From assembly GCA_024811115.1 (NCBI GenBank), contig JAKOGH010000721.1, positions 682,001-746,000 of the forward strand: DNA of 64,000 nt, in the 5' to 3' direction. This document shows positions 2,588 through 54,860 of the stretch, piece by piece (within the stretch, counting starts at the first letter, position 1; every line of letters begins with the position of its first letter). The notes beneath the pieces are model-generated. The model made no database searches and was not told the origin of the DNA. It worked only from the letters and a program-made list of their open reading frames with translations. The DNA comes from Terana coerulea. Taxonomy: Eukaryota > Basidiomycota > Agaricomycetes > Polyporales > Phanerochaetaceae. Both the position numbers and the translations under genes were made by a program.

Positions 2588-5485
<2,898 letters not shown>

Positions 5486-7009
5486 GGCGACGGCTGTGGT
5501 GAGGTGAGGGCAACAGGGAGGAGGACGAGGGCCGAACAAGAAGATGCAAATGAACGCACGCGACGCACTTGCCCGCGAAAGTGTCTGCCCTAAATGATAC
5601 CTGAGGCGCCTGCACTTGAGCGTTACAATCACGTGTATTGAAGAGAAGCGCCCGATGGCCATTGGCCACTATACACTGTCCGACTCGGATGCCGCAGATT
5701 TGAAGTTTGCTATTTACTACTGTACTGTATGTAGTACTTATGTTCAAAGTGCTTCTCCCAAGCTTCCCCCTGACATGGGATGTAGGATTCCAAAAATTGC
5801 TTCAGAAGTCAGGATTGGATTTGTACAAAACTCATGCACAGAGGAGCTCCAAGCCGCTAGGCTCGTGGGTCTACCAGGCCGCCCCAAACTCATGACATGG
5901 GAATATCTTTGGCCGCTGATGAGTTCATTCAATGTACGGGCTTCATGTTTGAGACACATAGGCCCGGCCTGCATTGACCGCGACGGAAAGGGTCTATAAG
6001 TACGAGGACTGGACGGAGGGCCGAATGGACCATTTGCACACGCTGCGTACTCGAGCCTCGAAGCGACTTTGGGCCTTTCCGAGGATGCATGTTTCGGGCG
6101 TCGGGTGCTGACATCGAGCAATTATTAGCGGAAATTGCATGCGTCTTCTGACCGCCCTGACCACACTTCCCGGACAGAGATAGTGCAGAGATCTACAGAG
6201 ATCCAGTGTAATCGAAGTGTAATACTCAACTTTGCGCATCAATTGCGCATGGTACCAAATGCTACTCACCTCACTCCGAAACACGGACATTTTACCCCGC
6301 CAAATTCGCCCAGACTCCGCACGAGGAGGGCCTAATTACGGGGAGTTCTGTCTTCGGGAATCCTTAGCGCCCGAGGTGCGTGGGTCGGTAGGGGTGCCTG
6401 GGCCTGCGTCAGAGACAGCTTTGCCTCCGGCGACGCAATATGACGGCCATATCGGCGCGGGTAATTGAGAAATTTTTGGGACGATCCGACCATCTGAGAT
6501 GCGCAGGGGAAGATCCCAGGCACAAGGAACTGAACAGCCGCCCTGCCGCGAAAGAGAGGATCAAGACATTCACTTGCAGCACTGCGAAAGCCCCGGTGGC
6601 AACGACAGTTGCAAACACCTTTGGTATACCCATGTACAAGAAGAAATGTGTGACGGATAGAATACAATGCGAGGCGGAAACGAAACACAACTACGGATGA
6701 GCTATCGAGACAGCGTAAAGGAGTGTGGGAGCGACAAAGGTTGTCCGTCGCTGTCAGTTTTGTTGGTATAACTGGGTCCACAACAACCGTTCAGACCGCG
6801 ACAATCGGCGAGAACTAGACAACTGATCAGACAACGTGATAGCAGCCACGAGGATGAGACTTACGATTCAGAACAAGCCACCAACTACACATGGCTGTGA
6901 ACTAGTAATATACGGAATAAGGATAACGGGGTAACCTGAAGGATGTGTAAGTCGTGTCTTCATACGCAGGTGGATGATGAACAAACGCACCATGAGACTC
7001 GAGGGGCAA
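5486..7009. other. Gene-poor intergenic stretch left of the peptide precursor
   Basis: No conserved protein is recognisable between the MCM3 start and the repeat-peptide gene. The only item worth noting is a weak minus-strand candidate starting at ATG 6633: MGIPKVFATVVATGAFAVLQ is hydrophobic like a signal peptide, and a Cys-containing reading frame follows if a very short intron (about 31 nt) is removed. That intron is shorter than all others in the window, so the candidate is doubtful. The rest shows no repeats or clear promoter elements. Confidence 0.4.
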
Positions 7010-7418
7010 TTATTGTTCAGTTCCGAATATCCGCTTCCACCAGGTCTGGCGGAACTGAGGAAAGGTGAGTTTTGGACTTCCACACTTGAGTGAAGAAGAC
7101 GTACGTCGCGTGCTTCATCTTCGCGTTTCCATCCAGCAGTCTCAAACTGACGCTTCCACCCAGTGGTCTCAAATTGACGCTTCCATCCGGCAGTCTCGAA
7201 TTGACGCTTCCACCCCGTAGTCTCAAACGAGCCACGCTTCCAACCTGCGTTCGAGTAGATGCGAGCTTCTACTGCCTGTTCGAGCGCTTGTCAGTACGCG
7301 GGGCGTCGCGACGGCGCGTCTGGGGACGTACTGCTTCAGGTGCAGGCTCCGCGATGGGGGCGGCGGCCGCAAAGGATGCGAGTGCGAGCGTGGTGAGGGC
7401 GGCAACGGGGAACTTCAT
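7010..7418 (-). CDS. Secreted Kex2-processed repeat-peptide precursor
   Basis: Three exons (7332-7418, 7105-7275, 7010-7054) join in frame into a 100-residue protein. Exon 1 encodes a classical signal peptide (MKFPVAALTTLALASFAAAA) followed by a short proline/alanine pro-region. Exon 2 encodes repeats each closed by Lys-Arg: NAGWKR, GSFETTGWKR, QFETAGWKR, QFETTGWKR, QFETAGWKR. Exon 3 adds FRQTWWKR and a short tail IFGTEQ before TAA. Both introns (56 and 50 nt) have GTACGT donors and CAG acceptors, and the first has a TACTGAC branch-like motif. KR after each repeat is the cleavage site of the Golgi protease Kex2. By family logic this is a KEP (Kex2-processed repeat protein), the class containing the alpha-factor precursor, Ustilago Rep1 and dikaritin RiPP precursors. 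Expected products are heptapeptides such as QFETTGW. Their function is unknown. No UstYa-like oxidase was recognised nearby. Confidence 0.78.
7123..7233 (-). repeat. 27-bp tandem repeat coding QFET(A/T)GWKR
   Basis: Three 27-bp units and one 30-bp first unit lie in tandem. Each encodes a phenylalanine-glutamate-threonine core ending in GWKR. Unit length is an exact multiple of three, and the encoded KR is kept in every unit although A/T alternates before GW, so the repeat looks selected at the protein level. Confidence 0.85.
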
Positions 7419-8930
7419 GGCGGGGGGAGTGGGCGGTTGAGGGACAGCGAGGAGGCAGGGGTCAGGAACGGGAAGGGGAAGGGAGCAAGTCTATAAGTAC
7501 TGCGCCGTGTGACATTGCTCAGCCGAGACCGAAACATCAAAAAGACAGCGTCTTCGATCGCTCCAAAGCTTTGCACGTGTCGGAGTCTCCCCAGATAAGC
7601 CCAAAGAGGCAATTCGGGCGGTTCGGTAATCGATCCAGCCCCGGCATGGGGTCGGCATGCCGTGCACGTCCCTGATTTGGAAGCAGACCGACACCAGATG
7701 CAGGCACACGATCCGCAAATCTCGGCGTCTGTCAGCGTGTGCGCCCTGACGTTCCTGGAAGTTTTGTTCCCATGGCGTGCCTGCCCGCTCCGCCCGAAGC
7801 CCAGACCGAAACCGCTCCACTCCGCCCATGTTTTGACGACTCGACCCAAGCAGCAGCAGCGCCACAATTGCTGGGGCGACAGGCAACGACGACGGACAAT
7901 AACTGCAGTCAGCGGAGCCAAGGGCAGACCAGCATCGGGGTAGGGTGCTGACATCGATGGTCACTCGTGCGGACGGTCCGGCCGTCGTTAATTGCGCAAG
8001 CACAATTAACCCTCGCAATATCGAGCGGACGTCCAAATCGCAAGCTGCAGCAGACCAAAACGGACGCAGACGCGCAGCAAACACATCGGTGCATGGTCGG
8101 ACAGGCAGTCAGCCTGTTTGTCACAGACTCACAGCCTGACGCTTGTCGGAACCCGGCTCAGAGCCTATAGGAAGCATGGTCCGACTCAAGAGCGGGTGCT
8201 TACCTGGAACCTTGCTAAGGATAGCCACGACAATTGTCGGGTCTGACCTCTGACGATACTGCAACCCTGTTATCGTCCCTCCATGCTTGTTCCATACAAC
8301 ACCAAAGTAGTCTCCGTTGCTGACTATAAACTAGTGTCAAAGACAGTCGACGATATCTAACACCAAAGGCATACGCGCGGTCTTAGGCACTGACGCCACA
8401 AAGAAGACAATCAGAAAGCGGAGGCGGCCCTCGGGGGACTAGTGGAACATACCAGCAATGTGCACGGATAATGCGAGATCATGCGTTGTGCAGCTGAGCG
8501 TCATGGCGGGACAGCACCTTACGCTATGCAAATATATCAAAAGATTTTCTCTGCAGAGCACGGCTCGTGTGGGATGGGCGTGATGCATCACCTGGCGGGT
8601 TCAGGTCTCGGCGAGCATCCACCGGTCACAGCTGGTCACAGCTGGGCACAGCGACGAGATCTCGAGAACCTTAAGCTGCATAAGCTTTCGTATGCAGTCT
8701 CCATCTCCCACGCCCCGCAGCGAAGCAGCTGCGATATGTATCAAGGCGGCCGCTTTGGGGCACCACCTTCTTCCCTATTTGTCATGTTGATCCGCGCGAT
8801 GAATGGGCAAGACCACGGCGTTGGGCAGCGTTCAAAGCTTGCTGCCAGATGCTTTGCTGCACACCGGGACGCGGAGACTGTCTGGCGGACTGGACAAAGA
8901 GGCTCTGAGCTGAGGCTCAAACTCACGAGC
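7419..8930. other. Intergenic DNA without recognisable genes
   Basis: The stretch immediately upstream of the precursor (7419-7490) is pyrimidine-rich on the minus strand, as expected for a fungal 5' leader. Beyond it I find no conserved protein, RNA gene or mobile element. Long open frames on both strands here lack similarity to any family I know and look like by-products of GC-rich sequence. Confidence 0.5.
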
Positions 8931-8968: not shown

Positions 8969-9693
8969 GATACCCGCTCAGGAGACCAATGAATGGTATT
9001 GCAAAGGGAGGAACGCTGGAGCTAGGGTTATGGGTTTGCGCGCGGGTCACAAGGGAGCCCTGCAAGTCTGCACGCGTCGACCTGCCTTACATGGCAGACG
9101 GCATAATGGACGGACGGCATTAGAAGATGGAAGACTCACAAGGTGCCTGGTAAGGATTTACCTCAACACGGCGTGTCATTCGCAGGCGACTGGAGATGAA
9201 GCGGGAGCGGCGCCCAGGGCTGACAAGTGCCAGCTAGCGTCGTGCGGTATGCCAGAGCGGCCAAACCCCGGACGGGCTGGGGCGCCAGTGCTTGGAGCAG
9301 ACCAAGCTGCCGCGGATACCCGCTCAAGGGATCGGCGGCATTGCAGGGAGGGGAGCGCAGGGGCTAGGGTTATGGGCTTGCGCATTGCACCTTGAGCTGG
9401 GGTCACAAGCCGGTCACAAGGGAGATCGGCCAATGGGGACACGGCCCTGTAGGGCCCGCACGCGCTGTCTGCTGCTACGTGACCGGACATAGCAGACAGC
9501 ATAATGAACGGACGGCATTAGAAGACGGACAACTCACAAGGTACCTGGTACGGGTTCACCTTGACATGGGATGTCATTGGCAGATGACTTGAGATGAAGC
9601 AAGAGCGGCGTAAAGACGCCAGCTGGGGTGTGCGATATGCCAAAAGGCGGCCAAAGATCGGATAGACTGGGGAACAGGGCCCGAGACAGACCT
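8969..9693. repeat. Imperfect direct tandem duplication, period about 345-400 bp
   Basis: Two diverged copies (about 8969-9302 and 9312-9693) share blocks such as GCTAGGGTTATGGG (9021 and 9363), GGACGGCATTAGAAGA (about 9111 and 9510) and GAGATGAAGC. The spacing changes from about 342 to 398 bp because the second copy holds an extra segment of roughly 55 bp. No coding frame is shared convincingly between the copies. The source could be a decayed mobile element or a local duplication. Confidence 0.7.
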
Positions 9694-9827: not shown

Positions 9828-11906
9828 TTAGTCCTGTACATTGGTCTTAGCCTCTATGGGAAGACGCGTGAAGACGACATGCTTACCCATAATTTAATAA
9901 GTCCGTCCCACGACGCAGTGACGACTTTAGACTGCAAACAAGTGCCGATGGCGCGTTAGCAATGATCCGATGCAGTGAACAGTCCCACGTACGGATTCGT
10001 GCGGCAGCCACTCGTGCGCGATGACCACCTTCGAGTGCGCTCGCAAGCGCGACTTGATGCGGCCCGTCTTCCACTCCCAGAACACGATGTTGCCCTCGCC
10101 GTCGCCACTGCTTATCCACTTGCCGTCGGGCGAGAAGCCGACCTGGCAGGCGTAGCCCGCGACGGAGTGCCCTGCAAACCGCTTGTTTCTTGCCTGCCGG
10201 AAGTTGTCCGTGCTGTACACCAAGATTTGGTTGTCGAGCGACTGCGCGGCAAAGTACTTCTCTGGACAAAAGGTTCAGCGCAGCACCGGAGATCCGCTTG
10301 GCTGCATGATGGAGAGCTTACTGCTGGGATGCAGGGTGACTGCTGGCATCGAATGCATGTACGGCTCGGCGATGTATTTGATCACGACGGGGATATCGAA
10401 GTCCCATGCACGTATGGTCTTGTCGTCCGACGTCGTGACAAAACGACGGTTCTCATCAACGAACGTGATGCTGTTCACAGGCCCGAGGTGCTGGTCGTAC
10501 TCCTGGGTAATCTCCCCGGAGTTCATGTCATACTGCGACGCGGGACTCAGCGCTGCAACCGTCGGAGAGAGTCAAGGTGCGCACCTGGATGATCTTTTTA
10601 TCGGACATGCCGGCGAGGAAGATGTGCTGCTTGTCTTCATCCGGGTGGAATCGTACGACGTACGGAATCTTGCCGTTGCTGAACCGCTTCAAGCACTGTC
10701 CGGTCTCGGTATCCCAAAGCTTCATCTGGCGGTCGTACCCACACGACAAGAACTTACGGCCGTCGTTGGAGAAGGTCACGTCCTTGACTGCCTTCATATG
10801 TCCATGGAAGGTCCGCAAACAGTTCCCGTGTGTATAGACATCCCACAGCTATCATTTTGAATGGTGTTAACATGAACGCTTCTCGACTAGAAGCCAGATG
10901 CGCACCTTGATCTTCGTGTCCATTGAGCCGCTGAGCAGCAAATGACCTGTATTCGGGAACAAGCGAATGACTGACACGGCTTGGGTGTGGCCAGTCCAGG
11001 TATGTATGCATGTCTTGGGGATGAATGTCTCCTGCGAGCCAGACTCGTGGTGTAGCTGCGGTGCCTCCGCGATGGGGGGCGACATGTACGTGCGGCCTTG
11101 GTAGTCTGTGAGCGACTTGCCGTGGAACACCGACGACTCCAGTCCTGGGGCGCCGCGCTTTGGCTTCGCCTTCTTGATCTGCACCTCTTCCTCGGACGTC
11201 TCGTCCTCGTCTTCGTCTTCAAAGGCTTCAGCAGGCGGCGTAGCCACCTCCTCGCCCGCCCAGCGCGCCCATGGGCCTTCGTACGCGCCATCGCCCTCAA
11301 CCACCTCAAGATCCCCCTTCCCCTTACGTTTCCTCTTCAACTCTTTCTTCGAGGCACGAGGGGCTTTAACCTGGCCGATAGTGGCGAAGCCATTGGCCTG
11401 CGCCTTCTCGAAATTGCCAATGACCGCGGGCGCGTTGGGGTCTATTGACGGGTTTGCGGAGTAACCGAGGATGGACTGCGTCAAATGCTGTTGCCGGAAG
11501 GCATGCTCAGACATGGCCTGCTCCTCGACGTGTCCGGCGAGCGCGTTTTGGTTCAGAAAGCGGCCGCGGTCACCAAACGGGTTCTCGGGCCCTTGTATTG
11601 GTAGTGTCATGTCTGCATAGTTGATGTTCACATTCATTTGCGTATCGGTTGGTCGAATGACTAGCGATGTCTGGTGAAGTGGATCCTGCATACACCCATT
11701 AGAAACATTCTCATGGAGTATATGCGCTGTGTTTGTGCTCACCTCTGAGAGAACATGCGGGGCAGCTTCCACCTTCAAGCTGGAGGAAGACGCTTCCTCA
11801 ACGCGTGGCTTTTTGCTATCGGGAGACTTGTCAGCCCAAAAGCATCGTTCGTAGCTCCCACAGGAGCATCATCTTCGCCTGAAGAGTAACCAGCAACAAG
11901 AGACAT
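9828..11906 (-). CDS. PRP17: Pre-mRNA splicing factor PRP17/CDC40 (WD40)
   Basis: This is the WD40 spliceosomal factor needed for the second catalytic step of splicing. The N-terminus [15 protein letters not shown] starts at 11906, followed by the family segments [11 protein letters not shown] and an acidic/basic linker. The WD40 propeller includes [48 protein letters not shown] and [17 protein letters not shown]. The last exons read [15 protein letters not shown] and, after a final intron, D plus stop at 9828. Six short introns are visible. One base seems to be missing between 11810 and 11840, most simply in the T5 run at 11810-11814 (A run on the coding strand): the frame of AFGLTSL and that of [11 protein letters not shown] differ by one. 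The start lies 194 bp from the divergent Myb/zinc-finger gene. Confidence 0.93.
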
Positions 11907-12100: not shown

Positions 12101-14291
12101 ATGACCGAGAAATGTATCGGCAAACCATGGACGCAACACGAAGATGACCTCCTCGTGCAGGCGGTGGCGATACACGGCGAGAACGACAACTGGATGAACG
12201 TCGCCGCCTGCATCCCTGGCAGGACGAACAAGGCGTGCAGAAAGGTGCGGCTGTCTCTGTCTTGTACGGCCCAGGCTCGAACAGACTTCCGGTGTAGCGG
12301 TGGCTGCATTCTCTCTCCCCTAACGTCAAGAAGACGGCGTGGACCGTGGAGGAAGATGAGCTATTGCGGACCCTCTATGCTAGACATGGAGCCAAGTGGT
12401 CCGTGATCGCAAGATCTATCCCTGGCAGGACCGACGACGCTTGTTCCAAGCGATATCGAGAGGCGCTGGATCCGACTCTCAGGAGGGACGAGTGGACTTC
12501 AGAAGAGGATCAGCATCTCCTCGATGTCTACGCACGCTTGGGACCTCAGTGGGGCAAGGTTGGCAAGAGCTCAACAGGGGCACTCTGGCTTGCCGCAACA
12601 GGTACGCCCCATTTGGTCTTACTTTTCAGGGTGAAGGCCAATGACCTCTGTAGGTGGCGGTTGCTCGACAGGAAACGACGGGCCTCTGTGCCACAGGAGC
12701 AGCTGGTCTCAACACCGCTTGTCTCACCGTTTCCTGGAGAGATTGACAGCGCATCTGCGATGACAGCATCCTGGGCACCTATCCAATACATGCAGTCCCC
12801 TCCGTACTGGGAGACTGGAATGTCGTATCCGTCCATGCAGGGCAGTCTCTCTGACCATCTCGCTGTCGCTGACTCTGTCTACCTCTCTCCTGAGTATTCC
12901 CCTACTTACTCACCTGAGTACTCGCCTCCTCAGCTCTATTCTCCGCCGCACGCTACGAACCTTCACGACACGACATTCAGCCATCCACAGCCACCCACAC
13001 CGCCTTTCAACTTCAATTCTTCCTCCTCGCTGTGCAAGGCCCTCTCTTTGCCGACCCTATCCCCTCCGACTTCCTATCTCTCCACACCAGCTCCCATCCG
13101 CCAACCTGAATTGCATAACGTTATATCACAACTTAATTCCGAACCTTTACCCGCCGCGAGTCAGCAGCCCTCTTTGCAGCCACGCTCTGCAACACAGCCA
13201 TCTCTCGCGAGTGATGACGCTGCTGGATTGCCGAGGCTAGGCTCCACCGACATCTCTGTCCCCATCCCGTTCCCAAACTCCCCCGTAGAGGCTGGTCCTG
13301 GCCATGAAATCAGCTATCCGACGCATGCTGTGATTTCTGCTGGTGTAGGTGGTATTTCCTCGGAACCCTCGGCAGCTTCTCCCACGGAAGCCAAGTTATA
13401 TCCGACTCCTGCGTCGTCTCCGCGTGCGGAAGAGGGCGCGGGTAGTGTCAATCCAGCTACGTACGTTGATGGCATGGATCCTAGGCGTCATTACCGGACC
13501 CCCGCGGAGAAGAAGAAGGCAGCTGTAGGCAACCATGCTCGACGCAAGATCAAAGAGGCCGGTCCTCCACCACGACTGTCCGCTAAACTGCCTGTCACTT
13601 CTGAGTGAGTCGTTGGTAGTTGGAACGTGCCTTGCAAACCCCGAGCTGACGCGCGTTTCAACAGTGTGCACGCGTACGTCTGTGGAAATGAAGCTTGCTG
13701 GCCGAATGGTGCGGGTGCTAGCTTCAGCTGCTACGCGACCTCCCAAGAGCTCTACGACCACTGGAAGGTCGAACACGCTGAGGACACCTCCTGCCAAAGG
13801 CCGTTCATGTGTGGAATCGAAGGGTGTCGCCGTGGGTGGAGGGTAAGCGCTTTGGCCTCAACATTATCTCCGGATACTCACGAGTTACAGAGCATCAATG
13901 GGCTCCAGTATCATCTCCAAATGTGAGCCCAACCGTGGCAATTGTAAGATACTGGCTCTGATGATGTATTCTTAGATCCAAGGCGCACTTCCAGCAGGCT
14001 GTCAGCGCGAAGTTGATGAGTCATCCAGAGACTATCGTGCCACCGCCGATGGACCCGGAAGGCCCGAAGAAGAAAATGTATCCATGCTCTCATGCTGGCT
14101 GCCCCAACCAATATAGACAACTAAGTGGACTGCGATACCATCTGGCTCATGTACGTGGTTAGATTTACCACTTGTTCACACGCTAATTATACTGTATTCA
14201 GGGTCATCCGCAAGACCTGCCCACGCAACTGGATTTACTACCTCCCGCTCTGGCGAAGAAGGTCGAGGAGAAGATCCACGGGAAGTTGTGA
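12101..14291 (+). CDS. Myb-repeat protein with C-terminal C2H2-type zinc fingers
   Basis: The N-terminal third has three Myb/SANT repeats: KPWTQHEDDLLVQAV..CIPGRTNKACRKRW, TAWTVEEDELLRTLY..IPGRTDDACSKRY and DEWTSEEDQHLLDVY. A long Ser/Pro-rich middle contains SPEYSPTYSPEYSP. The C-terminus has zinc-finger-like modules, YVCGNEACW..DHWKVEH, PFMCGIEGCRRGWRSING and YPCSHAGCPNQYRQLSG..YHLAH, ending with KVEEKIHGKL. Introns are visible near 12246-12298, 12592-12650, 13605-13664, 13842-13891, 13923-13976 and about 14153-14201. The third Myb repeat needs one extra base near 12561-12563: WGKVG then reads on as QELNRGTLACRNRW, the family form. The protein is probably a nuclear DNA-binding regulator; the target genes cannot be read from sequence. 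Confidence 0.78.
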
Positions 14292-21547: not shown

Positions 21548-24500
21548 ATGGACGAATTACTTCATCATTGCTTTCGCGAACTCGCATTCGAGGGAGACCT
21601 TGGTAAGTTTTCCTTTCTATCCAGGATTCATGTACGCCAAAGCGTCCAAAATGCGGTATCGACGCACCGCACCTCAGGGGTTCGAATCCTGCGCTGGTCT
21701 CTTTCTTCGACGACATCAAATCCTGACAATTTCGTCTGACTTCGTTCGCTTCATGCACTAGGCTGCAACGCGTCTCGCCTGCGCGATTTCGTCACCGAGT
21801 TTTACAAGCACAATGGCTCCGGTCAGAAGGTCGACGATGCGTACTGTGCGTTCGTCTGGTCGATGATAGCACCGCAACCCGACGTGCTGGTGGGCACTGT
21901 CTCGGAGGGTGCGGTGGAGGTGACTATTGCACCCCAACCCGAGAGCAGGGGCGAAAAACACGAAGGGCAAATACAAAGACGAAGAAGACGAAGCTGAAGA
22001 GGTTGAGAGGTCAGATGAGCCACCGTTCCGTGTCATACTGGACGCGGCCTCGAAGACCTTGGACGAGCTGAAAGCAGAGCACGGCGACGCACTTCGAATT
22101 GCTATTGAACCGGAAAGAGTTCGCTACGCCCTAACGGGTACGCATATCAGGGTATATGTGCTTCATTCATCGCGTGACTCCACGCTGACTTGTTCTCCAA
22201 CTCCAAGCCCTCCAAGTTGACTCCTACTGTGTACACGGCCTTGCAGCTTATTTCCCGCGGCCGTGAAAATGGTCTAAGTAGAGTCGATTTGAGCAAGAAG
22301 ACTGGCTACGATGCCAAGACCTGTCACTATCTGGTGAACCAACTTATTAGTCTAGATCACATGTACGTGTTACTTCACTACTTATTTGCGAAGACCAAGG
22401 CTCATGTCCGAACTTGAACAGTGTTCAGCGCGACAGAGCAGGCGTCGGAAAGAATCTTTGCATTCACAAGTATTTCTTCGACCGCAGCCCGGCATGGCAA
22501 GCCATCGTTGCGCAGGAGCGTGAGGTAGAACAGGCCGCTGCAGCCAAGGATGAGGAAGAGGAAGATGACGACGCGCCGCTTGCTGGTGTGGATAAAAGTT
22601 TGGCTCCCTCTCCTTTGAACCGATGGACAGCCGGCATCTCTCAAGCTTGCCGATTCTTCGAGTGAGGCTCGAGAAGCTTCTCAAGAAGTGCCCGCACTAC
22701 ATGCACAAAATGTTCAACCTGGTTCGCGCTATCGTAAGTAGTATATAAGGTGAATGCTTATACGACTTGGTTGCTGAATAGTGCTATTCAGGGATTTGCC
22801 AACCCGAGCAAGACGGAGCGTCGGTTCTTCCAAACTCGTATCCGAGAATTGGAGAGCGAGGGCTTCCTAGAGCAGCTGCAAGTGCGTGACAAGAGTGGGA
22901 AGTACGTCAAGTGTGTTCGACTTCTAAACACTGAGGACGTCGAAGATGACGCTCCTGGTGATATTGACTCAGGGCCGATTGAAGAAGGTCTGCTCCGTAT
23001 TTCAGGAATCATCAGTATGCTCACGCCAAGAAAATACATAGGACTTACACCGCTCAAGGCGAACCTCACCCTCCAACGCCAAATCATTGACATTGTACAG
23101 GAGTCAGGCGCCGAGGGCGCGACCATCAACGTAGGCGAATATACCTCGCTATATGCTATGCTAACCGGCGTCGCTCCTAGCAAATCACAGACGCAATGGC
23201 GAACTTCGACAAGCGTGTCATCGACTATCATCTCAATCGCTTCAAGGACAAGCCGGAACCGCCGTCGCACCTAGCTGACCTGCATGTGGCCCAGCTGGCC
23301 GAGACTCACGGTCGTGAACGGCGGTACAAATACTTCACGTTGAGCCACTTCGCACACACCGCAGAGAGGTTTCAGCTGGAGTTTCCGTACCCGGACTCGC
23401 ATCTGGACAATGTCGGCGAATTCCTCCCTGCAGATGCGAGCCAATTCTATCAAGACGAAGCGGAATTCAACCACTTTGTTGATAACTTCCAGGGCGTGAC
23501 AGATGGTGACGGCATTTCAGCCAAGCCGAAGAAGCCGAAGAAGAAGAGAGTGACCATTTCGACCGTTGAGGGCGACCAATCGAAACGAGGCAAGAAGCGG
23601 AAGCACAAGGACACTGAAGACGGGGAATCTGCATCTGCGCCGGTTCCGAAGAAACGAGGCCGCCCTCGTAAACACCCCCTTCCTGGCGATGCCGCTGGCG
23701 ATTCGGTCAGTTTCCCCACTGCCCCTAAGAAACGGGGGCGGCCCCGAAAGCATCCTCTCCCTGAAACGCCGGTGCATGGTGAAGGAGATGAAGACGCTGG
23801 AGAGTCGGCCTCTGCTATAGAGCCCCCAAGAAGAAGCGTGGCCGTCCTCGAAAATATCCCTTGCCTGAAGAAGACTCTGCTCCTATCTCGGCTGACATCC
23901 TTGCCGCTGACGGCGGCGAGGCGCAAGCTTCCCTCTGGGGTGGCACAAGAAAACGCTCGTCAAGATGTCGCGGAGGAAGATGTTCCTGCTTGGGAATCGA
24001 TTTCCACGGCTGACACCCCCAAGAAGAAACGAGGCCGTCCCATGAAACACCCTCTGCCTGAGGACATGCCTACCACTGCCGTTCCCGAGGAGACTCCTGT
24101 CACACGAGCGGACGAAGCTCAGGACCCTTCCGCTTCCGCCACAGAGGTCAACGCCACTCCTGGAGGTGTAACAGAAGACGGTGCAGTTAGTGACTCAGCT
24201 TCTGTCGTTGAGCCGCCCAAGAAGAAACGGGGTCGTCCCAGGAAACATCCTCTGCCTGAGGGCGCGTCAACTACTGTTCCCAAGGACACTCCTGTCACAC
24301 GGGCGGAAGAAGTTCAAGACCCTTCCCCTTCCGCAACAGAAGACGGTGTTGAGGATGACTCGGCTTTCTGTTGTTGAGCCGCCTAAGAAGAAACGCGGTC
24401 GTCCCAGGAAGCACCCTCTACCCGAAGACGCACCTGCAACTCTCTCAACCACCATCTTGTCTGTTACAGCTACAGCAACAAGTCACCCGTCTGATGCCGC

Positions 24501-27500
24501 GCAGACGGTCTCAAAGAGGCGCGGGCGGCCACCGAAGCAGCGCACAGAAGATGAGGCCCCAAACGCTCCAAGAAGACGCGGAAGGTCGGCCAAGCAGAGA
24601 GCTGCACCAGAAGCTCCTAAGAACGATCACGACGCTCCAGACGAAGAAATCGCTGAAGTCCAAGGTGCAGCTGACCCGCATCAGCCTGTTTCTGCAACGG
24701 TGGAGGCTCAGCAGCCTGCGCAGCCAATATCGCACACTCCATTGCCTACGGGGCCAATGGATGAAGACGGCATGGTGGTAGATTCGCCTCATTCGGAACG
24801 CAGTCACGAATCCCACGAATCACCCCGTGTTCTCCAGCCTTCTCAGTCGTCTGTTGTCACCAACGCAGCTCCTACCCATACAACTACTCCCTCCGCGCAC
24901 GGTGCATCTCGGCTCAGCGAGCCTGCGGATAGACCAGGGAATGACACGAGAGACGCGGCACATACTGCACTTAGCAGTGACAACGCCATCGACCCTGCGT
25001 TGTTGGCCATGGAGCCTCCGGATCCGACACCAGAAGAAGTACGTAACTTTTCGTACGATTATAAATTCGTACATCGGTCGCTAAGTACTCACATCATCTC
25101 CACTCATTGTAGAACGTCGAGAATCATCTACAGCAGGATGCCGCCCTTATGAACAGACCTAAACGACAAACGGCCGACCATCCGTCCGAGGGGCCTTCAG
25201 CCAAGCGTCCCAAGACGGAGACGGGCTATTACTCGAAACTCAATATCACGCTGTCCCGGCGGGTAAAAGAAGTTTTACAAGTCATAGAGGACCACGGAGG
25301 CATTGCCAACACCAGCGTCAAGGAGTTCTACGAAGCGCATACGGCGTTAGTTGAATCCTTAGCTAAGGCAGGCGAAGCAACCAGCTCCACTGGAGGCTCT
25401 CGTCTTGATAAGCGTACAATGGACGCGACTCTTCGTGAGCTGGAATCACAAGGGAGGATCAAGCTCCTTACAACGACTTTGACTTCAGCGAGTGGGGTAT
25501 CGCGTCCCCTCAGAATAGCGTATCTCATCGACACTCCCGTGGAAACCTTGAATGAGTTTTTGGCGACGATCAGTCGTGCTCACCCTGTCCAGCCGTCCCA
25601 GCCGTCTATCAAGACCCTCGACGAGCACATGGAATTTGGAGGGGACAGAACGAGGAAGGTCGCCCGGCCTCAGGCATCCGTCATCTTGTTGGAAGACGCG
25701 AGTAAACAGCACGATGCCCAAACAGCTACTGAGCTTCTGCGGTCGGACGATGCTACTATCAAGGCGTCGTTGCTCACAGAGCCCAACACGATTGTTCAAC
25801 AGTACGGATTTATCGTTGGAAAGATCGCCCGTGCCAGGGCATTGCACTTACACATCCTCCAGGCATTTGCCGACCGATCTTCTTCTCGCATCATCTCCAC
25901 AGATCCACGCATAATCCAGCTACCATACTTCTACGAGGATCTCCCCGTCTCCGTCTATGCGTCTATCATCTCTTGCCGCTTCCATAGTGAAGATCTTCTT
26001 GAAATGCTTGCACATCCAGAACATCGCCAGACGCCGATCAGTAAACTACCGTTGGATATCGTGGACGCATTCGAAACGAATAAAGCTCGGTCACGGACTA
26101 GGCTGCTGGATAACCTTGCAATACTTCAGAGTCTTGGCCTCGTCGTTCCCCTTCGGGTCTCTCAGTCCGAAGCCCCATTCTTGCAGTGCGCTACAAATGA
26201 CGATGAGCCAGCGTCGTTTGACGCGGCTCCTGCATACGATAGAACGGCGACACTTTCCGCTCCCCAATATTGGCTGTTCAAAGACCACGCTCCCTTACAT
26301 CTGTGGGCTCTCGATGTCGATAGCCCGCCCTACTATCGAGAAGCATCTATCAAGTCCTTATCCCAGGGTGAAGCATTTTGGCAAGAACTTCCAAGGAGTT
26401 TCGTTGGATCGCAAACGCTGCACAAGAATGGCAGAGAACGTTTCTCAGCTCGGTCATGCCACTAATGACCTTGCGGATGTACCGCCTCTGGTCGTGAAGC
26501 TGTTACGCCGGCAGACACAATGGCAAACGACATACAACTTTTCGTGGTTCCAGAAGCAATACCTTCGACAACATGTGAACAAGGCGACCGGTGACACTCC
26601 CTCTTCAGGACGAGGATGGTGGGGTTGCCCAAATTGCTCGAATCGCGACGACTGTTAGTGCTCCGAAGGACCAAGTAGAAGACTTCTATGTTCACGAGCG
26701 CGCGAGGTTAGTCAAAGACATCCAGCGGGTGAAGAAGAGCAGGACGGACAAGCGCAAGCGCAAGGAACAAGACCAGGCTACTCTCGCCCAGAAGGCCGCC
26801 CAAGCGAAGGCACAACGCGAGCGCGATTGGGAAGACATGGTGAAGAGAGTCCATCCAGAACCACTGAAAGGTACTTTCGCTACCCGGGTTCGCGCCGTTC
26901 GCACACGCTTCCTGCAGAGTTCGGGCAGGAATCACGAGCGATGGGAAGATGAGATTAGGAAAGCTATCCAGGAAGCCAGCATACCTGCGAAGAAGGCAGG
27001 CCCCAGCAGCATAGCCATCCCCAGACAGGCTGTGCCGGCACCGCTCCCACTGGCTACGGGCTCCAGAGAGAGGTCGATAGAGGACTTGATCGCTCGGCAA
27101 GGCCCACCTCTCACGAATCAGCCAGAGCGATCCAACAAGAAAAAATTGAAAGGCAGCGATGGCAAGTCGAAAAGCAAAGACGGTGAGCTTTCTTTTTCTT
27201 TCTGGTACTATTTGTGTAGGCCTCTGTGCTTACGCTATATCCAAAAGCCGCAGCGGACAAGTCCAATCGTCGTCGTGCGCGCTTTCAGTGGACTCACGAA
27301 TACGACGAACTTGCACGCGATGCTTCGGTGATCATCAGATCCCGTTGTCGAGAGGGTAGAAGGCTCGAATGGGCGGCGCTTGAGCAAGTTTTCCCTGCCC
27401 TTACGCGCAACCAAGTCCGACAACGTGCCAATCAGCTGAGAGAGCAGCCCGGTGCTGAGACGTATCTCAAACGTCTTGAAGATCGATTTTTCGAGCTATG

Positions 27501-39959: not shown

Positions 39960-40434
39960 AGCAGGCGACCCCGTTCGAGTTTTGGCGTTCCAGACAGGCC
40001 AATAAAAAGGAAAACAAAGTGCAGACGGTGCGGTTGGTGGGAAGGAGTGAAGTGGGAGCCGCAGAGGGTTCTGGTGGCTCTGAACCGTCCGCGCGGACTG
40101 GCTGTGGCACCTGGCGGGAGTGCGCTCCAAATCAGGCCGACGGCCGTTCCCGATCAAAACCTTCCAATGCAATCGACGTCAGCACGCGGCACGAGGGGCT
40201 AGACGCCGTCCCAGAACTGCCGCAGGCTTGCCCAGCTGACCCTGTCTTGTTCAGTCAGGGCCAGTCGTGAAGATGGCGCTTTGATACAACTGGGTCTAAA
40301 TGAATGCTGTACAACTCTGCCGAGCGATAACATAGCACGTGTTTTGCAAACATTACGAGCGAGCTCTATGATACACGGCAGCTATTAATCCACGTAGTAG
40401 CGAACAAGAAATAAAGATAACCGCGATAAATCCT
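39960..40434. other. Intergenic DNA between UPS1 and MBL gene copy A
   Basis: No gene was recognised. Only the part right of about 40325 is shared with the duplicate near 53.2 kb. Confidence 0.5.
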
Positions 40435-42273
40435 CTAGTAGTCGTATGCATCGTCGTACTCCTCGTCGTGTGCCGTCTTGTCGTCGGTGACGAGCACCTT
40501 AAGCCCGTCAAAAGCAGGCCGGACCCAGAGAGCGTCTCCAGCAGGCACCAGTGACAAGGCAGCCTTCTCCGTGGGAGTCAGATGCGCCTCCTTCTTCCTC
40601 TTCCCACCCAGGGCTTCTCCAACAGTCACGTATTCATCGTGTGCCACCTCGTGCCCAAACCCGGTCAAGTACGTCCTCTGCGCCCCCATCCGCCGCGCGA
40701 CGCTCCACCGCCTCGGCGATGCCCAGGTGCGACGTGTGCGGCTGCAGGCGGAGACAGTCGAGCACGAACACCGGTGGCACTGGCGTCGACCCATCGTCCT
40801 TCTCCTCGCGCCCGAAAAGTGACCAGACGTCCTCAGGAATATGTGAAACGTCCGAGAGGTAGACCACGGCGTCCTGGATGACAAAGCCGAGGCAGAAGTA
40901 TGGCCTGACAGCCTTGGGCAGCCCAAGCGGCTCGTCGAGGGGCAGCGGCGTGCCAGGCAGCTCACGAGGCGTCGAAGGACCCGTGGACGCCGGCGAGAGC
41001 GAGGTGGGCGTGGGATAAAACTCGTGCGCCGGGAGCGTGGAGAAGAACCGCCCGTGGTGGACTGCAGGACACACTCTCAGCTCGAGGGCCACGATCAGCC
41101 ACGGAGGGACGTACCGGCAAAGGGCGTAATCTTGATACCCGTCTGCTCAATCTCAAATGGCACCCTGTCTTCGATGATGTGCCACTTGAACTCTGGGACC
41201 TGGCAACGCGGTCAGCACGCGGCGAACCCGACCTGCTCGGGGCTGCACTCACGTCGCCTCCGCCGGATGCAAATTCCTTCGAGACGAGATACGGGAAGGC
41301 GCGCTGGACCTCGCGGAAGGTGTGCATGGTCACGTACAGATCCACGAACGGCTGTATCGCACTCCGCAGCGTCCAACCTATCGCACTGCCGTCAGCCGCC
41401 CCATTCAGTCCGTCACGGAATCGCCGAACTGACCTCGGAGGTCGTCCAAGCCGTTCATCGCTGCCGGCACCGCCAACGTCAGCACACATGCATGCAGGCA
41501 GCTAGCACTGCGGCGACCGCGCAATAAATCTTACAGATTTATTGGGGACTTATCACAGAGAATGGAACAAACTATCTCTCATACCTCCTTCATATGTCCT
41601 GCGTGTAGCAACCAGAAACATTGTGATGCACTGGATTTAAGCTGGACATACGCAAGAACAAAGAGGTATTTTGAATATATCTGTCATGCATCCCTTGGGG
41701 CCATGAAAGACGTTTTGTTCCAGTATCCGCGATAAGTCCCGGATAAGTCCGGGAGAATTATTGGGCAGTCGCCGCAGGGAAAGGCGGAAAGGCAGACGTA
41801 CCGTCCGCGTGCGCGTGCGTGATGAGCACTGCGTCTATCCGCCGCAGGCCGAACTTGGGGAACCACTCGACCGCGGACGCCTGGAAGCTCTTGCCGACGT
41901 CGATGACAATCGTGCTACGCGGCGCGGCGGTGTGAGTATCGCGTGGGGTGGCGCAGCCCTGCAGGCCTGCAGGCATGTGGCGCAGACGTACCGTTTCTCA
42001 CCGTCGCTGCCCCGGACGCGTAGGGCCACGGACGTGTTTCTCTGGGAAGCGCGGGGTTAGCGACATCGGAGCGGAAGGGGGCGAACGCCTGCAACGCACG
42101 CGGATGTTCTTCTTGCCCTCTGGACGCAGCGTCGAAAGACAAGTGCGACAAGGCTTCACGTCCGGAGGGGCCGTGAGGCAGTCGACGTGTGGTAGGCCGG
42201 ATGAGGTGCCCGTTCCGAGGAAGATGAGCTCGACGGGGTCGTTGGTTGGGGTGTCCATCTCAAGTGAGCCCAT
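40435..42273 (-). CDS. Metallo-beta-lactamase-fold hydrolase (PhnP-like), copy A
   Basis: The protein starts MGSLEMDTPTNDPVELIFLG and has the PhnP-like opening GTGTSSGLPH, CLTAPPDVKPCRTCLST. The metal-binding motif HAHADAMNGLDDLRG is assembled across an intron, followed by WHIIEDRVPFEI, TPFAVHHGRFFSTL and the later metal ligand region VVYLSDVSHIPEDVW. It ends EEYDDAYDY. The family hydrolyses phosphodiester or related bonds; the substrate here is unknown. The intron after HAHAD holds a 270-bp MITE-like insertion absent from copy B. Near 40703 copy A has one extra base relative to copy B (GACGCTCCACC versus GACGCCCACC), which shifts the frame after GIAEAV. Either copy A is inactivated or this is an assembly error like those in neighbouring genes. 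Confidence 0.82.
41508..41777. mobile_element. MITE-like element with 20-bp terminal inverted repeats
   Basis: The two ends, CTGCGGCGACCGCGCAATAA (41508-41527) and, read from the other strand, CTGCGGCGACTGCCCAATAA (41777-41758), match at 18 of 20 positions. The 270 bp between and including them are missing at the matching place in copy B (about 54362-54366). There is no coding capacity. Internal short palindromes occur (AATAAATCT..AGATTTATT; repeated GATAAGTCC). A clean target-site duplication is not evident. It lies in an intron of MBL copy A, oriented so that splicing need not be destroyed. Confidence 0.72.
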
Positions 42274-43275
42274 GGTGGATGGTGAGGAGGGTGTAGGGAG
42301 TATCGAAAGATGTCTGGAAGCGTCAATCTACAGTCGTGTGTTATATAAGTTTCCAGTCTGTCAGCGCCCCACCGCAAAACCTGACAAGAGGATCTGATAG
42401 GCCAGTTCAAGCTGAGTCCAGCACGTGGGGTTGTTGGAAAGGCTGAGCCGACTGGTGCGAAGGTGTTGACTAGTGCCGTAGTGTGCGAATGGCTCAGAGA
42501 TCGTTCGGCGGGGGTGTGCAGCCATGGCGGAAGACGACATTTGTACGCAACCGCACCGAGAGGACATCCGCACGTAGGGCGGAGGCTTGAGGAAGGGCGC
42601 GCTGCCCCGACGGCGGGGGGGAGGCACATCGTGGTTGTGGACGAACCTTGGTGGCGCGCGACGGCGATCGCGTGGAGCGATATGTGGGCGCCTACGGAGG
42701 CACGGACGGACAGGGCTTCGCTGCACCGAGTGTTTTGGGTGCTATCTAAAAAGACGAGAAAGGGCATTTCCTAGCTACTATAGATCACTAAAGGCTCTGA
42801 CGATCATCGTGTGGGGGCAGCGATCGGACGCGTCTCTCAAGGCAGCAGGGCTGCATCTCATCTCGTCGCGTCCTCATTGGCCCGCGCTCCATCATGCATC
42901 CCATCTGCCATCAACCGCCCGTCCGTCCTCTCTCTTCCACCTCCACCAGCCATCTCGTCCCGGGCTCCCATCCCTGCTGCGACACACGGCGTCCGTCCAA
43001 GGCGCGCACCTCGTGCAAACGCGTGCTCACAGGCGGGCAGTGCTTGGCTTGCCGCGACGACTGGACCTCGCCCGCCGGCCGCAAGTCTGTCGTCTCACGC
43101 CGACACCGGTCGCAGACCGTGCGTCAGCTGCTGGTGAGCGTGCCCCGCCGTTTGGGCCCGTTCTGACAGTCCTCGCCTGGAGCTTGCTCGTCGGACGCTG
43201 TGCTGTTGCCCTCGAATCCCCCCTCTCGTAACAGCAGATGTCGGCTCCTGGCAGACGTAGCTTCAGTGCACAGGC

Positions 43276-44129: not shown

Positions 44130-45190
44130 AGAGCACGCGTCCGCGGGACGCAGGCGACACAGGCTGCATCTCGCCAGCGGATCGACAAGTCCCCGGAACG
44201 GGGGACGTCGTTTTGACGTGACAACGCATTTCCTAAGCGCCCACCAATGTCAGCGAAAGTGGCCTCGCGAACACGGATTTCTGCGTACCTGGACCGTGAA
44301 TAGCATTCCGCGCAGCATCCTCGACGCCCTCCGCGGCCCCCATCTCGCGTCGTGCGACGGTCGCTCCCTCGCCTCCCGGTTATCACGACGGTGCCATGGC
44401 CAGCCGTCGGGTTCTTGTTGGGCTCGAAGAGGCCCGTGTGTGCGGCATGCGCAGTACAGGGCTTCATCTCGCTGGCGGGTCGACAAAATCCCGGAACAGC
44501 GGGTGTTGTTTTGCCTCGAAAATGGAGTTTCTAGGCGCACACGAATGTCAGCCAGTGCCGCCTCGCGAACATGGATTTCTGCGTACCTGGGCCGTGAATC
44601 ACATCCAGCGCAGAATCCGACACGCCCTCTGCGGCTTGCACCGTGCGGCGTGCAGCCGTCCAACTTTCGCACTACGGAGTAGAAGTGTCGTCATGAGTGT
44701 AGAAGGCCTGCGTCCCGCGGATGCAGGCGGCGAAGGCGGCATCTCGCCAGCGGATCGACAAGTCCTTGGAACAGAGGACGTCGTTTCGACACGAAAACGC
44801 GCTGTCTAGGCGCCCACCTATGTCAGCCAGAGCTGCCTTGTGAACACGGATTTCTGCGCACCTGGAGTGCGAATGACATTCCGTGTGGGGTCCTACACGC
44901 CCTCCGCGGCTTGCACCTTGCGTCGTGCGGCCACCGCGACCCAACGCCAGGGTGGCGGCTGCGCCCTCGCCTTGCAGTGATCATGGCGGCGTGACGGCCA
45001 GTTGTCGAGATTGTGTCGGAGTAAAGGGGCTGCGTCCGTGGGACGCAGGCGACGATGCTTCATCTTGCGAGTGGGTCGTCAAAATCCCGGAGTGGCTGGT
45101 GTCGTTTTGCAAATTGAAAATGGATTTCCTGAGCACTGATGAATGTCAGTGAGAACAGTCTCGAGAAAGTGGAATGCAGCGTACCGGGAC
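44130..45190. repeat. Diverged tandem array, period about 275-325 bp, four copies
   Basis: Four units share a block like CGCCAGCGGATCGACAAGTC (about 44172, 44470, 44744, 45067), followed by a GGAACG/GGAACAG block, a segment containing AATGTCAGC and GGATTTCTGCG, and CGCCCTCCGCGGC. Copies differ at many positions. The units show no consistent open frame. Confidence 0.7.
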
Positions 45191-47262: not shown

Positions 47263-48309
47263 AGGGGAGGAGGATTGCTCGGAAACAGCATCTCCTCCTC
47301 CCGTTCTCACTCTCACTCTCATTCCCTCCTCTCCTCCTCCTTTCTCCTCCACGAGACATCTATCTACACCACCAAGCCGCCCTTTCCCATCGCCGAGCAC
47401 GTCCCGCACGCCGCCACGCCACGCCATGCCACTCGACGAGTGCCCTTTCACGTCGCTGTGATGCGGACTCTGGTCAGCCTGCGGCTGTGTCCGCCGTTTT
47501 CTCTGTGCTAACGCGTGTTTCAAGTGTTTACAAGCAGATTGTGTAGCTTATCGATCTCGAGGCTCCAGTAAGTACAATTTTGATTCTATCCTCTTTCGTT
47601 CAATACGATTAATTGTTTTCACGAGTTTTTAGTTACACAGGGCGATTATAAACGAAGATAGTACTATACGCCGCTGCAAGACGCGTCTTACTTACTTGTA
47701 ATCGAACAGTGGAACAGTAAGTGGTCCGCTCAGACTGGACAATGGCGAAGTTACTTACCAGACCTATTCCAACAGGGCTACATTATCTTCTACCTTGGTG
47801 CGAGCCGTGTAAGCCGCACAACCTTGTATTGAACCCATTGCGTCCGAGTACCCAGGGCTCGGCTTGCGCGTTGCACGCACGCCCGTGCTCGGGTCGTCGG
47901 TGTGTAATCCCGGTGAGTCCTCCGTGTACCATCTGGTATGGTCTCTGCATATGGGCTCGCTGCTGACTTCTTCTAACAGAATTTCAAACATACCCTCGGG
48001 GATCTCTATCGCTCACAGGTAAGCCACTTGTCGCGTTCCGATCCATTCTCGAACTACTTAATATTTTGCCCATAGATTCGGGCTCCTCTTGCGCGCATGG
48101 AGCGGCATCCAGCGTGCACGTGCGCATCGTGCTTGCTCTCTCACAAGTTGCGCATCGGACGGCGCGCCCGCGGTTCTGAACGCCCGACCACGGCGCGCCT
48201 TCTCTGGCACTCACTATGTATTACAGCGCTCATTTAAACGATACTCACCGCGAATGGCCGCAGTAATGTGCGCGATAGGCTCGATGGGTCATGCGCTGAG
48301 GAGTTGACG

Positions 48310-50690
48310 GCTGGGAGATCGGCGTCGCTGTCGTTTGCCTTGGTAGGTGATTGTATGGCTGTGGTCGGCGCGCCGCATAATGACCCACACTGACATCGCT
48401 TTTGTTAGAAGACTCAGCCGGCGACAAGCGGAGGGTTGCAAGATTAACCCAGCACCGTCAATTCTCTCGTACCACATGTCAAAGGGTAAGACACGCTGTT
48501 CTCATATTCCTCTGCTCGCGTCACTGATCGCGTCGTTGCATAGATACCGCCGTAGACGGCTGCACAAAACACTGCCTCCCGTAGAATGCGCGACACGCGG
48601 CGCAGCTGCTCCATTCACTCACGGGGACACAATTTACAACAAGTCGCTGCGGGGATCCCACTGCGTTCAGCAGCGGGCCGGGCGTCCACAAGCGTCCATT
48701 CGGTAATCTCGGTCTCGCAGGTCCGTCACTCATCGTTTGCGAATTGATTCCCAGACAACTCACTGAAGTAACCCTAGACTCTGGTTTCTCTGGCGTGTTC
48801 AAAGCCGTGTTCGACGCGCGCGCCGTACGGCCTCCCGCAAATCACCGGACGGCGCAGCTACGGCCTCGAACCCGACCACCCAGCCACGGTATACGGCGCG
48901 CTTTGACATTGTAAGTGCACTGTTTGTCCTTCAATTGTTACGTTGATTAGACATCGCTCACGGCATTGGCCCAGATGAAATCTCTCGCGAACAGTCGCCG
49001 TATCGGGCAGGATATGCTCGGCGGAGGGCGTGCCGGGCTACGATGGTCGACAGCCGGGAAACGGGCGTCGCAATCGGCTGCCTTTACTGGTGATATCACG
49101 GTTGCAGTCGCCGCCCCTCAGTACCGCTCGCACTAGCGTCGTTATGACCGGGAGACTCGCGGAATAGTCGGCGACGAGCCAACGGCGGCTAGACCATACC
49201 CCGGCATCGTCAGTTCTCTGGCGCCGTACCCCGCCATCCTCAAAATGGTAAGGCACGCCGTTTGCATCATCCGTGGTTGCACACTGACCCTCCCGGTGCG
49301 TAGATATCGCCACAGATGGCCGCCCTTGACGCCGCGCCGCAGCATATTCCGCGACGGACGGTGCGCATTCACCAGGACCGAGCCCGCATCACGCCACCAC
49401 CAACTCCCTCGCATTCGCGCACTGAACCCATGCCGGTATGTCCACTTTTGTGACTTGGTACGCGCCGGGTCGACGGCCGGGAGATCGGCATCGCTGTCGT
49501 TCGCCTTGGTCGGTAGCTGTACGGTTACGGTCGGCGCGCCGCATGACAACCCGCACTAACATTGTTTTTGTTAGAAGACTCAGTCGGCGACGAGCCGAGG
49601 GCTGCAAGGCCACAACCCAGCATCGTCAGTTCAAGTTCTCTAGCACCACATGTCAAATAGTAAGACATGGTGTACTCATATTCCTGTGGATACATCACTG
49701 ATCATGTCACGACATTGGTGCCATTGTAGACGGCTGCGCGAAACGCCGCCTCCTGTAAAATGCGCGGCACGTGGTGCAGCTATCCCGTCTACCGAGACAG
49801 GATCTGCAACAAGTCACTGCGGCGCTCCCACTGCATTCAGCGGCGGGTTGGGTGTCTACAGGTGTCCACTCGGTGATCTCCCTCTCGCAGGTTCGTCACT
49901 CGTCGCTTTGATATTGATTCACAGGCAACTCGCTGAACTGGCCCCAGACTCTGGTTTCTCCGGCCCGCACGAAGCCACGTCCGACGCGCGCGCTGCACGA
50001 CCGCCCGCAAGCATCGTCCGGCGCAGCTGCGGCCCCGATCGTCCGACTACGTTACTACGGTACTACGGTACACGGCGCGCTCTTGACATCGTAAGTGCAC
50101 TGCTTGCCCCCGATTGCTGCTTCGATTAAACGTCACCCTGTAGCGTTGGTCCAGATGAAATCTCCCGCGAACGGTCGCCGTACCGCGACGTATAGGATTG
50201 GCGAGCGGCATCCCAGGCTAAGATGATCGACAACCGGGAAACGGGCGTCGCAATCGGTTCCCTTTACTGGTGACGCCACGGTCGCAGTCGCTGCCCCTCA
50301 GTACAATATGCAGCAGCGTCGTTGTGACCGGGAGACTCGCGGAATAGTCGGCGACGAGCTGACGGCGGCAAGACCATACCCCGACATCGTCAGTTCTCTG
50401 GCGCCGTACCCCACCATCCTCAAAATGGTAAGGCACGCCGTTTGCATCATCCGTGGGTGGCATACTGACCCTTTCGGTGCGTAGATATCGCAGCAGATGG
50501 CTGCCCTCGATGCCGCGCCGCCGCAGATTGCGCGACAGACGGTGCACATCCACCAGGACCGAGTCCCCATCACGCCACGACCAACTCACTCGCATTCGTG
50601 CACTGAACCCATGCCGGTATGTCCACTTTTGTAACTTGCTACGCGTCGCGCCTGTTCTAACCTTAACCTCATGCAACCTGTAGTTACACT
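48310..50690 (+). repeat. Tandem duplication of a 1.19-kb exon-intron-like unit
   Basis: Two copies (about 48310-49480 and 49480-50660) align over their length, with blocks such as TTGTTAGAAGACTCAG (48403 and 49568), CGGGAAACGGGCGTCGCAAT (about 49054 and 50237) and ACTGAACCCATGCCGGTATG (about 49421 and 50600). Within each unit, the same splice-like donors and acceptors recur around short segments. Segments from different places resemble each other in one frame (GDEPTAARP, GDEPRAARP, DARAARPPASIV), which suggests older sub-duplications of about half a unit. Confidence 0.75.
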
Positions 50691-53200: not shown

Positions 53201-53298
53201 CCATAGCACAGGTTCATTATGAGCGAGCTCTATAATACACGGCAGCTATTAATCCATATAGTAGAGAGCGAGAAATAATGATAACCGCGATAAATCCT

Positions 53299-54860
53299 CT
53301 AGTAGTCGTATGCATCGTCGTACTCCTCGTCGTGTGCCGTCTTGTCGTCGGTGACGAGCACCTTAAGCCCGTCAAAAGCAGGCCGGACCCAGAGAGCGTC
53401 TCCAGCAGGCACCAGTGCCAAGGCAGCCTTCTCCGTGGGAGTCAGATGCGCCTCTTTCTTCCTCTTCCCACCCAGGGCTTCTCCGACGGTCACATATTCA
53501 TCGTGTGCCACCTCGTGCCCAAACCCGGTCAAGTACGTCCTCTGCGCCCCCATCCGCCGCGCGACGCCCACCGCCTCCGCGATGCCCAGGTGCGACGTGT
53601 GCGGCTGCAGGCGGAGACAGTCGAGCACGAACACCGGTGGCACTGGAGCCGTCCCATTGTCCTTCTCCTCGCGCCCGAAAAGTGACCAGACGTCCTCAGG
53701 AATATGTGAAACGTCCGAGAGGTAGACCACGGCGTCCTGGATGACAAAGCCGAGGCAGAAGTATGGCCTGACAGCCTTGGGCAGCCCAAGCGGTTCATCG
53801 AGGGGCAGCGGCGTGCCAGGCAGCTCACGAGGCGTCGAAGGGCCCGTGGACGCCGGCGAGAGCGAGGTGGGCGTGGGATAAAACTCGTGCGCCGGCAGCG
53901 TGGAGAAGAACCGCCCGTGGTGGACTGCAGGACACACTCTCAGCTCGAGGGCCACGATTAGCCACGGAGGGACGTACCGGCAAAGGGCGTAATCTTGATA
54001 CCCGTCTGCTCAATCTCAAATGGCACCCTGTCTTCGATGATGTGCCACTTGAACTCTGGGACCTGGCAACGCGGTCAGCACACGGCGACCCCGACGTCCT
54101 CGGGGCTGCACTCACGTCGCCTCCGCCGGATGCAAATTCCTTCGAGACGAGATACGGGAAGGCGCGCTGGACCTCGCGGAAGGTGTGCATGGTCACGTAC
54201 AGGTCCACGAACGGCTGTATCGCACTCCGCAGCGTCCAACCTATCGCACTGCCGTCAGCCGCCCTATTCAGTCCGTCACGGAATCGCCGAACTGACCTCG
54301 GAGGTCGTCCAAGCCGTTCATCGCTGCCGGCACCGCCAACGTCAGCACGCATGCATGCAGGCAGGAAAAGGCGGAAAGGCCGACGCACCGTCCGCATGCG
54401 CGTGCGTGATGAGGACTGCGTCTATCCGCCGCAGGCCGAACTTGGGAAACCACTCGACCGCGGACGCCTGGAAGCTCTTGCCGACGTCGATGACAATCGT
54501 GCTACGCGGCGCGGCGGTGTGAGTATCTCGTGGGGTGGCGCAGCCCTGCAGGCGTGCAGGCATGTGGCGCAGACGTACCGTTTCTCACCGTCGCTGCCCC
54601 GGACGCGTAGGGCCACGGACGTGTTTCTCTGGGAAGCGCGGGGTTAGCGACATCGGAGCGGAAGGGGGCGAACGCCTGCAACGCACGCGGATGTTCTTCT
54701 TGCCCTCTGGACGCAGCGTCGACAGGCAAGTGCGACAAGGCTTCACGTCCGGAGGGGCCGTGAGGCAGTCGACGTGTGGTAGGCCGGATGAGGTGCCCGT
54801 TCCGAGGAAGATGAGCTCGACGGGGTCGTTGGTTGGGGTGTCCATCTCTAGTGAGCCCAT
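53299..54860 (-). CDS. Metallo-beta-lactamase-fold hydrolase (PhnP-like), copy B
   Basis: The same gene as at 40.4-42.3 kb, with the same exon pattern and start MGSLEMDTPTND at 54860. The last exon is one uninterrupted frame through GIAEAVGVARRMGAQRTYLT to EEYDDAYDY, so copy B is the intact version. The metal-binding segment HAHAD / AMNGLDDLRG is preserved across a short intron (about 66 nt), where copy A carries the MITE-like element. Several differences from copy A inside exons are synonymous (for example TGCCTG versus TGTCTT in CLS), which suggests that both copies were under selection after duplication. Substrate unknown. Confidence 0.85.

Follow-up and report, generated by a model that had tools for sequence, protein, structure and literature searches.

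Positions 7010 to 7418 of a window of 64,000 nucleotides on a contig of Terana coerulea (C560) hold short, near-identical repeats, and raise the question of whether these are the coding part of a secreted peptide precursor and whether such a precursor belongs to a new family or to a known class. We analysed the locus within this window, i.e., the whole stretch of DNA under study, whose coordinates are used below. In our reading, drawn from the sequence and held at a probability of roughly 0.8, the locus encodes a 100-residue KEX2-processed repeat protein (KEP) with two predicted introns, which is likely secreted and from which cleavage behind every KR would release short, linear, tryptophan-ended peptides.

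Gene structure and surroundings

Three minus-strand exons (7418-7332, 7275-7105 and 7054-7010), placed by a splice reading of the sequence, join in frame into a protein of 100 amino acids. The features are as follows.

7332..7418, minus strand: exon 1, with start codon, signal-like peptide and start of the pro-region, 29 codons (translation MKFPVAALTTLALASFAAAAPIAEPAPEA)
7362..7418, minus strand: predicted signal peptide, residues 1-19, cut between SFAAA and APIAE (hydropathy and (-3,-1) rule)
7276..7331, minus strand: predicted intron 1, 56 nt, GTACGT...AACAG (GT-AG signals)
7105..7275, minus strand: exon 2, with end of the pro-region (AVEAR), five W-KR units and EDEARD (translation AVEARIYSNAGWKRGSFETTGWKRQFETAGWKRQFETTGWKRQFETAGWKREDEARD)
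7234..7260, minus strand: unit 1, IYSNAGW-KR (translation)
7204..7233, minus strand: unit 2, GSFETTGW-KR (translation)
7177..7203, minus strand: unit 3, QFETAGW-KR (translation)
7150..7176, minus strand: unit 4, QFETTGW-KR (translation)
7123..7149, minus strand: unit 5, QFETAGW-KR (translation)
7055..7104, minus strand: predicted intron 2, 50 nt, GTACGT...CTCAG (GT-AG signals)
7010..7054, minus strand: exon 3, with FRQTWW-KR, the tail IFGTEQ and the stop (translation FRQTWWKRIFGTEQ)

The precursor thus laid out has a signal-like start, a short pro-region and six tryptophan-ended units each followed by KR, five in exon 2 and the sixth (WW-KR) in exon 3. Both predicted introns are of the GT-AG type with GTACGT donors, and end in AACAG (intron 1) and CTCAG (intron 2). 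Branch-like motifs, CTGAC in intron 1 and CTCAC in intron 2, begin 19 and 15 nt before the 3' ends. If intron 1 is retained, the frame shifts and runs into a TAG stop; if intron 2 is retained, the FRQTWWKR end is lost. Re-reading the sequence confirmed an in-frame three-exon gene at these coordinates, the splicing itself being predicted, and agreed with the original prediction of three small exons with good splice signals, a stop in the unspliced frame, and an in-frame precursor with KR-ended repeats and FRQTWWKR. The signal peptide was called from hydropathy and the (-3,-1) rule, i.e., predicted by simple rules and not by a signal-peptide program; four cut sites in the precursor satisfy the rule, the one between SFAAA and APIAE among them. 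The signal-like start (by these rules only) and the six W-KR units also bear out the suggestion that the protein is likely secreted and carries Kex2-type KR sites.

The locus is also present on a second contig (C114, 12,787 bases), which aligns to the window in three blocks of 99.0-99.8% identity. The three exons there match those of the window exactly. Within the gene, the two contigs differ only in intron 2, by a gap of one base and a change next to it, and the flanks differ too. C114 also has two insertions of its own, of 369 bases (3554-3922) and 717 bases (6046-6762), which lie to either side of the precursor gene. Their sites correspond to 6437-6444 and 8559-8567 in the window; the flanking repeats are 8 and 9 bases long, the inverted ends match at 19/20 and 15/20 bases, and the elements are MITE-like. 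Because of the differences in intron 2 and the flanks, and of the two insertions, C114 likely represents a second haplotype rather than an assembly echo.

On one side of the precursor gene lies an MCM gene, which we take to be MCM3 and whose MCM domains span 4017-5668, and on the other a WD40 frame at 10870-11868; a Myb frame lies at 12298-13605 (all by Pfam). These neighbours are of household type, and no biosynthetic cluster was seen in the Pfam search (19 of 87 long frames). Two 124-bp direct repeats (9089-9212 and 9487-9610, 83% identity) are located about 2 kb from the gene. Elsewhere in the window, 40351-42586 is duplicated in direct orientation at 53215-55180, as two blocks with identities of 97.3% and 96.7%; a beta-lactamase-superfamily match just below cut-off occurs in one of the copies. 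Two segments of about 1.2 kb lie side by side as direct copies (48303-49464 and 49469-50645, 81% identity), and 44137-44929 contains a direct repeat in triplicate, its units about 180-220 bp long (77-80% identity). Repeats at 24018-24419 encode KKRGRPRKHPLP-type segments, presumably an AT-hook-like motif, ahead of a frame (25113-26462) with a GTF3C1 winged-helix match below cut-off.

The repeat array as coding sequence

The array might be a 27-bp minisatellite that is open by accident, or the remains of a dead gene. Tandem Repeats Finder reported a period of 27 bp (3.8 copies, 81% matches, score 134), which is a multiple of three; one antisense frame is likewise open, and the precursor has no homologue at E ≤ 10. 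Yet there is a silent bias between the main units, whose WKR ends are kept. Of the 10 sites that vary among these four units, 7 fall on third codon positions, and 9 codon changes from the consensus are silent while 3 change the amino acid. When as many changes were drawn at random 20,000 times, no draw contained three or fewer amino-acid-changing ones, a figure that serves as a guide and not as an exact probability, since the consensus was made from the same four units and the changes were treated as independent. The test covered the four main units, units 1 and 6 being left out. Pairwise codon counts gave 20 silent and 7 other differences for the four main units alone, and 28 and 25 when the more distant unit 1 was added, with which the silent excess is gone. 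The signal-like exon, the two introns whose removal keeps the frame, and the second contig with intact exons also argue against an accidental or dead frame. We set the chance minisatellite aside on the codon test, taken as a guide figure, and consider this explanation extremely unlikely.

We scanned the whole genome for runs of three Trp-Lys-Arg sites, W-KR only (TGGAARMGN, at a spacing of 9-36 bases), and obtained six matches, three overlapping ones at the locus and three at its copy on C114; the same pattern read backwards as a control returned five. The number of such matches alone is not above chance, but their clustering in one gene is. With two sites, the pattern matched 21 times in the genome versus 7 in the control, and 8 of the 21 matches were at the locus and the C114 copy.

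Class assignment and searches for relatives

KEPs have been named and described as present in nearly all fungi (PMC6339444), and the class was surveyed in 2019 and 2020. The precursor has sequence features of the class, i.e., a signal-like N-terminus (by simple rules) and near-identical repeats split by dibasic KR, and also those of the W-ended AADW-type, with W before a dibasic site, AAP and a short pro-region. To say that it had no named family was therefore too strong, as its layout is that of a class already described (PMC6339444, PMC9769878). The novelty claimed for the family holds at most for the core sequence, the kind of system being known.

We found no relative of the precursor at E ≤ 10 among 5.8 billion proteins (189 candidates shared words with it), as the original prediction had supposed, and Pfam gave nothing over cut-off for it. 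The same database returned 392 proteins for a control query, residues 1-450 of an Ssk2-like kinase frame at 58739-61357 of the window. In the best 120 of these 392, Phanerochaete carnosa came top, followed by Grifola, Trametes and many polypores (the orders of the matched organisms are our assumption). Together with the STE3 receptors of the genome, this result points to a basidiomycete host, probably close to Phanerochaete. Since the control finds many polypore proteins, the database holds polypores well. A missing match is nevertheless weak evidence for true orphanhood, because annotation can overlook small spliced genes. An orphan core would also be ordinary, given that 2560 of 7878 KEPs stand alone in the available text of PMC7329392. 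The FETTGW and FETAGW cores were not found in the literature searched, whose scope was outside the supplementary KEP tables where the core may stand published; among the matches listed, text was matched with ETAGW only, mostly inside words such as metaGWAS. The literature searched held nothing further in the way of newer functional work on KEPs.

Proposed products, alternatives and known systems

As a KEP, the precursor would enter the secretory pathway and have its signal peptide removed. Kex2 would cut after KR, Kex1 would trim both basic residues, and the three Q-starting units would acquire an N-terminal pyroglutamate. This would release QFETAGW, QFETTGW, GSFETTGW and IYSNAGW as linear peptides of seven or eight residues, otherwise unmodified. 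STE13 trimming would not be expected because no XA or XP follows KR. The genome encodes a candidate Kex2-type convertase, seen as partial domain matches: P_proprotein (the proprotein-convertase P domain) has three equal-score matches over cut-off, which cover positions 1-57 of 86 and contain one read-through stop apiece. The most likely product would be linear QFET[A/T]GW, probably capped with pyroglutamate. The calculated [M+H]+ values are 838.373 (free) and 821.346 (pyroglutamate) for QFETAGW, and 868.384 and 851.357 for QFETTGW; those of GSFETTGW and IYSNAGW are 884.379 and 810.378. Q-starting KEP peptides have been detected in pyroglutamate form (PMC9769878).

The same source, in its available text, describes no pure-culture phenotype for six Coprinopsis KEP knockouts; its authors favour a role of mushroom KEP peptides in biotic interactions, and suggest extracellular signalling to other hyphae or dealings with other organisms (PMC9769878). 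By analogy, the peptides described here would most likely act as an extracellular signal to other hyphae or in biotic interactions. KEP peptides are widespread in mushrooms, mostly without known function, and this gene, from a polypore-like fungus, supplies peptides of exactly calculated mass and a single locus to target by knockout.

Alternatively, as in dikaritin-type RiPPs, UstYa-type oxidases could cross-link the cores before these are released, so that the product would be cyclic. The precursors of dikaritins (ustiloxin, phomopsin, asperipin-2a) share the layout of a signal peptide and KR-separated repeats (PMC9769878), the core has aromatic residues, and an unlinked enzyme could act from among 22 UstYa matches in the genome, 21 of them over cut-off. 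However, a search of the whole genome exon by exon, which gives a lower bound, placed none of the 22 on C560 and so found no UstYa (DUF3328) gene beside the precursor. Unlike in dikaritin systems, five of the six units lack Tyr, which occurs in only one. Moreover, the available text of PMC7329392 counts a DUF3328 (UstYa) neighbour for 103 of 1680 basidiomycete KEPs. As none of the UstYa matches is on C560, cross-linking is less likely, and we rejected the dikaritin RiPP, which we regard as quite improbable; the neighbourhood gives no support to a RiPP precursor of the UstYa kind, an option raised by the original prediction.

Another alternative is an alpha-factor-like pheromone, signalling independently of sex through a seven-helix receptor outside the STE3 family. 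The plan of the precursor is the same as that of ascomycete alpha-factors, and there is a sub-threshold STE2 match on contig C883 (19.7 bits, with the cut-off at 27.2; 13.8 bits in one frame alone). But KR is not followed by XA or XP dipeptides, two of the three frames tried at that match show no STE2, and the genome has STE3 receptors (23 matches, none on C560). The genome profile search gave no STE2 receptor over cut-off and this single match below it. We rejected an ascomycete alpha-type pheromone on the missing dipeptides and the STE2 match under cut-off; the broader alternative is very unlikely. A bolder conjecture makes QFET[A/T]GW the peptide hormone of this lineage, linear, pyroglutamate-capped and alpha-factor-like, with its own seven-helix receptor outside STE3, steering hyphae independently of sex; we think it unlikely. 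The match on C883 (17860-18153, one stop read through) possibly corresponds to a seven-helix protein of another family. Many STE3 receptor matches are clustered at C530:11-18528, probably a pheromone-receptor mating locus. Lipidated a-type pheromones of basidiomycetes have a C-terminal CaaX and no signal peptide. The precursor differs from them in ending with IFGTEQ and starting with a signal-like stretch, and was rightly held not to be a lipidated mating pheromone.

The linear tryptophan-ended products of our preferred reading have counterparts in mushrooms. W-ended KEP peptides were detected in 2022 in fruiting bodies of Lentinula and Pleurotus, and, derived from a non-repeated tail, in Coprinopsis culture fluid (PMC9769878). 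A protein search seeded with the Lentinula core gave four proteins at E ≤ 10 among 7993 scored (P0121-P0124), two of which are Lentinula proteins. In all four, a signal-like stretch is followed by AAP, by a short pro-region with a terminal Arg and by three to five W-ended units, mostly before KR (one is before RR and one at the protein end). In their alignment with the precursor the invariant columns include AAP and two W-K-R. Single-pair E-values were 0.010 with P0123 and 11 with P0121, which are weak scores (P0122 and P0124 were left out). The sequence match to W-ended KEPs is unconvincing, and the likeness is one of layout.

The W-ended KEPs (Lentinula SGTGEASAADW, Pleurotus SGVAADW; PMC9769878) have the same order of parts as the precursor, whereas its core ends in GW and theirs in ADW. 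The Pleurotus precursors also have STE13 dipeptides, which the precursor lacks. Basidiomycete KEPs with the STE13 signature (PMC6339444) are likewise repeat precursors cut at KR, but there KR is followed by XA or XP, and here by GS, QF, ED or IF. Judged from these comparisons, the architecture is common to the precursor and the W-ended KEPs, while common descent is not established. The precursor brings a W-ended core that matched no relative, and adds no new class, but a further member to a known one, the KEPs.
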